Below, one piece after another: positions 53,391-55,050 of a DNA stretch of 64,000 nt. A program made the position numbers and the translations under genes. How positions within the stretch are numbered: the stretch's first letter is position 1; each line of letters starts with the position of its first letter. The notes beneath the pieces are model-generated. The model had not been told where the DNA came from, ran no database searches, and worked only from the letters and a program-made list of their open reading frames with translations. This stretch comes from Acrasis kona (Eukaryota; Heterolobosea; Eutetramitea; Acrasida; Acrasidae), in the NCBI GenBank assembly GCA_026419775.2, contig JAOPGA020001336.1:19862-83861 (forward strand), in the 5' to 3' direction.

Positions 53391-53642
53391 GCTCTCTATG
53401 ACAGTATTTGGTCATGCTGTGGTGCGTGCGTAGAGGATTCTTATTGCTCGGGGGAGGACAAGCACTACACGCATTGGAACAACGGCTGGATTACCAGAAA
53501 ATACTATGACGGTGTAAAAAGTCACAAAGAACTACCAGACATTAAATTTTCAAGAGATAATAAAATTCTGTATGGGATGATGTGTTTTATTGTTCTGATA
53601 ATTTTTTTGTTGTTACTAAATAATAATCTACGTTTAATTTAA
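53391..53642 (+). pseudogene. Fragment encoding a hydrophobic C-terminus, no start codon
   Basis: Open in one frame from 53391 to the stop at 53640 without an early ATG: SGEDKHYTHWNNGWITRKYY then a hydrophobic C-terminal helix (MMCFIVLIIFLLLLNNN). A tail-anchor-like end on a headless frame. Overlaps the 3' end of the F-box-like gene on the opposite strand. Perhaps the lost end of another gene of this dead region. Confidence 0.35.
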
Positions 53643-54565
53643 TACAAAAGCAGACACTGGCTTTCCCATGACCCAACCGTTCTTTATATTTTGGTCAGCA
53701 GACAGGAAAAATTTATAACGAATGTTGAACGGAACATCCACATGATTGTATCTAACGTTGTAGTAAGCTACATCGCGTCCATCTTCTTGTACTTTTATTA
53801 ATTTATCAGGATTTATTTTGAACATTCTCGTTGCGTTGTGGTCAATTACTTGCAGGAAATGTTGTAAACAAAACTTTTCAATAGGGAACAGTGCAGGGCA
53901 GGTTCCATTATTATCACTCGTCCGAGTGTCCAGCTCGTATATTTTTCCATCGTTGTAAATGTATTTACCACAGTTGCGATAACCGTAGTAATCGTCACCT
54001 AATAAAAATGAGACTGTGTTGCGTTGAATTTACCTTTGAGGGCAACTACATCCCCATCACTTGCGTAACGCTGTAGTTTTGTAGCAAGAGGTTGCAGGAG
54101 TCTGCTGGAACCAGGAAGATAAACTTCTTCAACTAAAAATGTTCCTTCTTCACAAGCGTCATCGTAATCGTCTCCATTTTCAACAAAGTTCCAGTTGTCT
54201 TTGTTGTCTAGTTCTTTTTCATTAAAGGTCCATTCACCACTGTCTTCATTTTGGAAATACAAGGATTTTTCCACTTCAATACATTGTGCTCTGGTGTTGG
54301 TAAATGTTTTGATTCCCTTTAATATTGGATCTGTTATTTGCTTCATTTGCTGACACACTTGTTGTAGAGCAGGGTAATCAACATGAGAGAGGAAATCAAT
54401 TACCGAATTCCAAATCTCTTTTGGCAGAGTAAGCTCAACCTTCTCATTTTTAAAGTGAGAGATTTTTTTCCTTTTATAAGGTTTTTTCAGGACTGGATTG
54501 TTTTCACTTTCGGGTTGTGCTCGGTGGCCGAGTTTCTTTCGAGTGGTTTGTTTGGTTCTCGCCAT
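53634..54565 (-). CDS. F-box-like protein with a histone H3 tail-like N-terminus
   Basis: Two exons: 54565-54034 and 53998-53634; intron 53999-54033 (35 nt). Product 298 residues. The first residues are MARTKQTTRKKLGHRAQP. The histone H3 tail is (M)ARTKQTARKSTGGKAP, so nine of the first nine post-Met positions match except Ala7 to Thr, keeping Arg2, Thr3, Lys4, Gln5, Thr6, Arg8 and Lys9. An F-box-like helix block follows (LTLPKEIWNSVIDFLSHVDYPALQ, then VCQQMKQITDPILKG). The remaining 200 residues have no recognised domain (EGTFLVEEVYLPGSSRLLQ, DDYYGYRNCGKYIYN). No histone fold is present. An F-box protein would link SKP1-type ubiquitin ligases; the tail could dock H3K4/K9 readers or modifiers. 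F-box call moderate; tail match is directly visible. Confidence 0.75.
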
Positions 54566-54701
54566 GTTCCTTTTGTTCTAGTAAAAGTAGGATTAATTTA
54601 TCGCACTCAACCAGAACATTTTTTGGTTGGTGTGATTTGGTTACAGTGTAGTATTCTAATGCATTTGTAGTTGATCACCACGTGACGCTTTGTCCCCAGC
54701 A

Positions 54702-55050
54702 ATGACATTTGTGATGGATACAAAAACCCATTTTTTGTTCTCCGTAGTAGATTCCTCAGTGACTCCTAAATACTTTCTTTTATTTGGTTTTGTAATGTGT
54801 GGCATTACAACTCCGAAAACAATACACAACATGACACAAGAACAACTTCAAATCGAACACGATGACACAAAGATGTCCAAAGTACTTTATGTCATCTACT
54901 GTAGAACCCCACTCTCACCCATTACAGCAGGTCAGGTTCGTGGATGAAAGCACAATACAACGCCTCAACTTGACCCATTCGACTTTTTAGTATGGACCAG
55001 GATTGTTTTGTTCAACATTTGAACAACTGTATTTCAATAAACATGAATGA
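54702..55050 (+). CDS. Small hypothetical protein in two exons
   Basis: Exons 54702-54935 and 54991-55050; intron 54936-54990 (55 nt, GTTCGT...TTTTTAG). Product about 97 residues: DTKTHFLFSVVDSSVTPKYF, a hydrophobic middle (FLLFGFVMCGITTP), then polar sequence and a C-terminus FCSTFEQLYFNKHE. No domain recognised. The frame is maintained across the intron, which is the main reason to believe it. Low confidence. Confidence 0.4.

Follow-up and report, generated by a model that had tools for sequence, protein, structure and literature searches.

The 64,000-nucleotide window analysed here, part of contig C678 in the assembly (37.35 Mb in 1021 contigs, all searched) of the heterolobosean social amoeba Acrasis kona, encodes an F-box protein whose N-terminus reads almost exactly like that of histone H3. 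This H3-like start is no isolated case in the A. kona genome. A second, unrelated kind of protein, encoded by transposon-linked genes on other contigs, also has an H3-like N-terminus, and the presence of such starts on unrelated proteins of the same genome suggests that the resemblance of the F-box protein is probably meaningful. If so, an H3 mimic at the very start of a ubiquitin-ligase adaptor would represent a new link between chromatin readers or writers and protein turnover, and H3-tail proteins linked to transposons would constitute a novel type of accessory protein for these elements. The latter would also offer a testable system in which mobile DNA meets H3-based silencing in an early-branching eukaryote.

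The F-box gene and its product

The F-box gene lies on the minus strand, where an open reading frame beginning MARTKQTTRKKLGHRAQP extends from an ATG at 54565 to a stop codon that ends at 53634 (Table 1). The limits of the gene are as given in the initial annotation, although the span it described contains one intron of 35 nt and is thus not a single uninterrupted frame. The spliced product comprises 298 aa and has the same sequence from end to end as A0AAW2ZD97 (NCBI/UniProt), a deposited A. kona protein that bears the unhelpful name 'PCMP-E24'. In-frame stops sit directly 5' of the ATG, and the second in-frame methionine is residue 74, inside the F-box, so that 54565 is the sole start that leaves the F-box whole, barring an unseen upstream exon. 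As gene prediction in A. kona is described as having combined RNA-seq, protein evidence, and manual curation (PMC11589745), the annotated start is at least indirectly supported. One full-length copy of the gene was found in the assembly; this and all other genome-wide counts given below refer to the 37.35 Mb searched, the genome size being estimated at 44.02 Mb in the same paper (PMC11589745). None of the terms histone, F-box, or chromatin occurs in that paper's main text.

The F-box-like motif that had been noted behind the N-terminus was recovered by the Pfam model PF00646, which matched residues 46-79 of the 298-aa protein at 23.6 bits, a modest match that exceeds the curated cut-off of 20.5. 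Three Pfam families reached E ≤ 5, each of them an F-box model, two being weaker than PF00646, and none matched the C-terminal half of the protein at this threshold. In keeping with the initial annotation, which had seen no histone fold, there was no match to PF00125 in the protein at E ≤ 5, and the 18 places in the assembly that match this family do not include the F-box gene. The single match in a search of the PDB (E 1.9) was not meaningful.

Homologue searches returned little beyond the protein itself. At E ≤ 1, A0AAW2ZD97 was the only match in a database of 5.77 billion proteins (337 candidates scored), and with residues 1-40 as the query the protein was again the sole match (one candidate). 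No viral relative was confirmed among viral contigs; three stretches with a common peptide pattern failed tblastn. Within the assembly, a 43-aa stretch in a 79-aa open frame on C526 resembles the C-terminal part of the protein (51% identity, E 0.005), and no H3-like tail was detected near it. With no homologue found, there is no sign that the H3-like tail is conserved. The gene is real, apparently single copy and, at the reach of the search tools, lineage-specific.

Table 1. Features of the F-box gene in the window and of transposon-linked loci. Window positions are given as numbers; other loci are given by contig and locus.
Feature	Location	Strand	Basis or remark
F-box gene, exon 1, with start ATG at 54565	54034..54565	-	identity with A0AAW2ZD97
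F-box gene, intron, 35 nt, GT..AG	53999..54033	-	spliced product equals deposited protein
F-box gene, exon 2, to stop codon	53634..53998	-	open reading frame and deposited protein
H3-like N-terminus, codons 1-10, MARTKQTTRK	54536..54565	-	sequence, chance estimate, shuffles
Basic stretch LKKPYKRKK, NLS-like by eye	54464..54490	-	recalls H3 LKKPHRYK, but within shuffle noise (668/5000)
F-box, residues 46-79	54329..54430	-	PF00646, E 4.8e-5
Acceptor-like TTTTACTAG, 12 nt 5' of ATG; possible 5'-UTR intron, a caveat on the start	54578..54586	-	by eye
Recent duplicate, 159 bp, head-to-head with F-box gene	54709..54867	+	95% identical to DNA 5' of a GNAT acetyltransferase frame on C506
Open frame of 433 aa, beginning MARTKQVARKNNTAMAPRQHLESAAKKK	C596, L043:4665-5966		H3-like tail of about 28 residues
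DDE_Tnp_4 transposase frame	C596, L043:3648-4523		Pfam PF13359, E 1.2e-26
Transposon-like repeat, left edge TAGGCCGTGGCACA	C774, L045:5390-9927; C703, L044:3772-7777; C408, L058:1359-3075		

Extent of the resemblance to histone H3

The predicted protein begins MARTKQTTRKK. The earlier reading that eight of the nine residues after Met equal the start of H3 is confirmed by the sequence: residues 1-6, 8, and 9 are identical to H3, while Ala7 of H3 is Thr and Ser10 is Lys, two changes that may weaken the binding of some H3 readers. The F-box protein thus resembles the H3 tail in these residues and in their position at the very start of the protein, but differs from H3 in lacking the histone fold and in the shortness of the likeness. 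When residues 11-45 were compared with H3, 668 of 5000 shuffles reached the observed score, which indicates that the resemblance ends after residue 10 and that the mimicry does not reach Lys14, Lys27, and similar positions.

Seven H3 genes are present in the assembly, all on contigs other than that of the window, and no H3 gene was found in the 64-kb window itself. A search of the assembly with the 44-aa tail of the local H3 (E ≤ 10) returned ten places: besides the seven H3 genes, these were C703 and C774, both at E 2.5e-4, and, more weakly, C596 at E 0.037. The F-box gene was missed because its likeness is short. Searches with short patterns retrieved it. The pattern ATG-A-R-T-K-xxx-R-K occurs at nine places, which are the seven H3 genes, the F-box gene, and C596, and the reversed-pattern control occurs at none in either orientation. 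The pattern MARTKQ occurs at these nine places and on C703, C774, and C686 (12 in all; control, 0 forward and 1 reverse), of which C686 was dropped as it encodes MASTKQ. MARTKQT is found at ten places, comprising the seven H3 genes, the F-box gene, C703, and C774 (control, 0 forward and 1 reverse).

A transposon-linked protein family with H3-like tails

The second kind of protein with an H3-like start is encoded on C596, where a DDE_Tnp_4 transposase frame is followed, 141 bases downstream, by a 433-aa open frame (Table 1). This link to a DDE transposase comes from one locus, the copy on C891 stopping short of the transposase. On C703 and C774, MARTKQTTRRSVGGKAPRQNL heads a frame of 59 aa, and relatives of the C596 body are found alongside in other frames. 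The last part of the C596-like body on C703 is on the strand opposite to the tail, and this copy is thus rearranged; on C774, introns or decay may separate the pieces. In all three, the H3-like stretch runs as far as about residue 25-28; past residue 10, the score of the remainder was reached by 0 of 5000 shuffles for C703 and by 23 of 5000 for C596. The C596 and C774 proteins are 56% identical over their first 25 residues and about 43% identical in the body, from which it follows that the tail probably predates their split.

Matches to the C596-type family at E ≤ 10 numbered 20 and were spread over 11 contigs. Three of these contigs have the tail (C596 and the near-identical C703 and C774), the start is replaced on C891, and no H3-like tail was found on the other seven within the stretches examined. 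A loose match on C299, which agrees at six of ten residues and then runs into a stop, was not counted as a tail. By eye, the body of the family contains HG..(A/S)C motifs like those of caspase-type (clan CD) proteases, with HG and GAC in C596 itself, and H282-G283 and C328 are invariant in the three aligned rows. At E ≤ 1, the C596 protein matched no Pfam family, and nothing in the protein database among the best 8000 candidates by word sharing. A PDB profile search with three family frames (E ≤ 10) returned 15 rows with no clan CD protease among them; 14 were H3 or Cse4 over positions 1-29, weak matches (E 0.9 to 5.8) in an alignment whose tail is carried by the C596 row only.

Across the ten loci scanned, which were drawn from nine family contigs with a second set of stretches for C596 and C891, the sequence TAGGCCGTGGCACA stands at the edge of a repeat on five contigs (C703, C774, C160, C280, and C408), and C408 also has an inverted copy, the element measuring 1.7 kb end to end. 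On C774 and C703, the repeat carries the H3-tail gene and a divergent frame that we take by eye, without a convincing Pfam match, for a transposase. C408 and C527 resemble copies with internal deletions, in which the 3' parts of the H3-tail gene and of the divergent neighbouring frame are joined. This arrangement suggests that the repeat has the make-up of a DNA transposon. Against this, the right-hand end of the repeat was observed on C408 only, no target-site duplication was evident in the C408 flanks shown, and the putative transposase frame lacks a convincing Pfam match; we refer to the repeat as transposon-like.

The F-box protein has the MARTKQ start in common with the C596, C703, and C774 proteins, but the latter have an unrelated HG..(A/S)C body, no F-box, and the longer H3-like tail described above. 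Homology between the bodies was rejected, as the best alignment of the F-box protein with the C596 protein consists of the first ten residues (E 0.063). Nor does the F-box gene appear to be part of the same transposon: six transposon-linked frames found no match in the window at E ≤ 1, TAGGCCGTGGCACA is absent from the window with up to two changes allowed, and the gene has one full copy in the genome. The sole hint of a link is Thr7, which the F-box protein shares with the C703/C774 tail and which occurs in none of the seven H3 genes, and this could be a parallel change.

Origin of the H3-like N-terminus

Fusion with a fragment of an H3 gene had been raised as an alternative to mimicry, and we compared codons at the ten residues common to the F-box protein and H3 within residues 2-18. 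Two or three of the ten codons are identical in comparison with each of the seven H3 genes; unrelated codons drawn from local usage agree at a mean of 3.8 of ten, with three or fewer in 44% of draws, so that there is no excess over unrelated codons. The H3 genes, by the same measure, agree with each other at three to nine of these codons (six of the seven compared). Codon identity at chance level indicates that the F-box tail is no recent copy of H3, and together with the limit of the likeness at residue 10 it makes a recent fusion unlikely. What remain are a tail that is old, its residues preserved and its silent sites eroded, or one that is convergent. Agreement in residues but not in codons is what selection on the peptide, or convergence, would produce, and an old origin and convergence would both make the tail peptide matter; since the comparison covers ten codons and has no relatives to draw on, this pattern is suggestive only.

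The most probable of the alternatives is an older event, although we consider it unlikely. By this account, the F-box gene acquired its start long ago through fusion or exon capture, the source being either the tail of an H3 or the first exon, itself H3-like, of a transposon protein, and ten residues survive by constraint or luck, in which case mimicry may no longer matter. The common Thr7 is in its favour, as is the 159-bp duplicate next to the F-box gene (Table 1), which is a copy of DNA lying 5' of a different gene and indicates that such pieces move in the A. kona genome; the duplicate itself leaves the origin of the tail unexplained. The basic LKKP stretch also follows in an H3-like order, but this lies within the noise of the shuffles. 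Against an old fusion, codon agreement with the C703/C774 tail is two to three of ten, again the level of chance, no upstream likeness is seen by eye, and neither the six transposon frames (E ≤ 1) nor the terminal repeat have a counterpart in the window. Three divergent H3-like loci on C801, C853, and C893 were rejected as donors of the tail, as their tails read MPPKVGGTK.

Chance had been the other alternative to mimicry, in that a lysine/arginine-rich start might happen to read like H3 with no role at chromatin. Using the residue frequencies of stop-to-stop frames of at least 150 aa in the window and a proteome of 15,868 proteins (PMC11589745), we expected 1.5e-5 proteins per proteome to match H3 at eight or more of nine residues, rising to 3.8e-4 with frequencies multiplied by 1.5 and to 3.7e-3 with frequencies doubled, all for one motif that was picked post hoc. 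Allowing for the many other famous N-terminal motifs would raise the expectation in proportion, and the lack of an orthologue, the single gene, and the end of the likeness at residue 10 are each what a coincidence would produce. Even so, the match to H3 1-9 appears to exceed chance for this motif, the reversed form of the longer pattern is absent from the assembly, and the same genome has a second family with H3-like starts; we therefore regard coincidence as improbable.

Least probable of all is a wrong start, with an upstream exon joining at the acceptor-like sequence 12 nt before the ATG and placing ARTKQ inside the protein, where it would not be a free end. Introns, of 9-95 bp, are reported for roughly half of the genes in A. 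kona (PMC11589745), but the deposited model from the RNA-seq-using pipeline begins at the ATG (PMC11589745), a check by eye of the nearest upstream ATG revealed no short frame-keeping exon, and the acceptor-like sequence could just as well be that of an intron in the 5' UTR.

A proposed role for the H3-like F-box protein

An initiator Met that precedes Ala is normally removed, and free ends of the ARTKQ type are recognised by PHD and similar readers, by H3K4/K9 enzymes, and by LSD1-type demethylases. F-boxes bind SKP1, and F-box proteins direct other proteins to destruction. Against this background, we tentatively favour, as somewhat short of probable, the reading that the F-box protein is a short N-terminal H3 mimic that ties an SCF ligase to readers or enzymes of the H3 tail. 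As Ala follows Met, the initiator would most likely be removed, exposing an A-R-T-K-Q-T-T-R-K end that readers, writers, or erasers of the H3 tail might accept. The F-box would bind SKP1, and the protein would then bring chromatin factors to the SCF ubiquitin ligase or hold the ligase at chromatin. In its simplest form, the protein would be an adaptor through which H3-tail binders reach the SCF ligase, or would itself be kept on chromatin complexes by them. We infer these events, from Met removal and reader binding through modification and SKP1 binding to ubiquitination, from the predicted protein. Methylation of the F-box protein in the manner of H3 would be equally possible. The assembly contains two matches to the SKP1 family (best E 1.1e-27) and 33 PHD matches, which makes binding partners plausible.

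A broader account, which we offer as a long shot, is that H3-tail mimicry is recurrent in A. kona. The near-complete H3 tail at the start of the transposon protein would perhaps draw off or override silencing factors, while that of the F-box protein would bring such factors to SCF or be a domesticated copy, the whole reflecting a host-transposon conflict over recognition of the H3 tail.

Comparison with known mimics

The H3-like motifs of G9a, influenza NS1, EZHIP, and ADNP are internal or C-terminal. Like these, the F-box protein has an H3-like peptide on a non-histone protein; unlike them, it has the motif at the N-terminus, from Ala1 to Lys9. An H3-mimic role of the SNAG domain was reportedly set out by Baron in 2011. 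The SNAG domain of SNAIL1 is, as the F-box tail would be, an N-terminal peptide in an H3-tail binding site, but its sequence is not ARTKQ-like; it is described as binding the active site of LSD1/CoREST (PMC3715402). Histone mimic peptides of ADNP have been described as well (PMC3022755). For the transposon-linked family, a possible parallel, likened by description, is VANC of VANDAL transposons, a transposon-coded protein set against host silencing and characterised as a sequence-specific anti-silencing protein (PMC10398659). Among the matches listed from the open-licence literature, there was neither an F-box protein nor a transposon protein with an H3 mimic at its N-terminus.

Other loci and the neighbourhood of the F-box gene

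The H3-like loci on C801, C853, and C893 (L011, L012, and L014) are possibly centromeric, with a tail that begins MPPKVGGTKTRA, and in-frame stops at these loci may mark an intron. Rfam and tRNA scans of the 64-kb window returned nothing. The F-box gene has ordinary neighbours between 49550 and 57296, which encode an asparaginase, a PROPPIN-type WD protein, an AAA_28 protein, and an isoaspartate methyltransferase.
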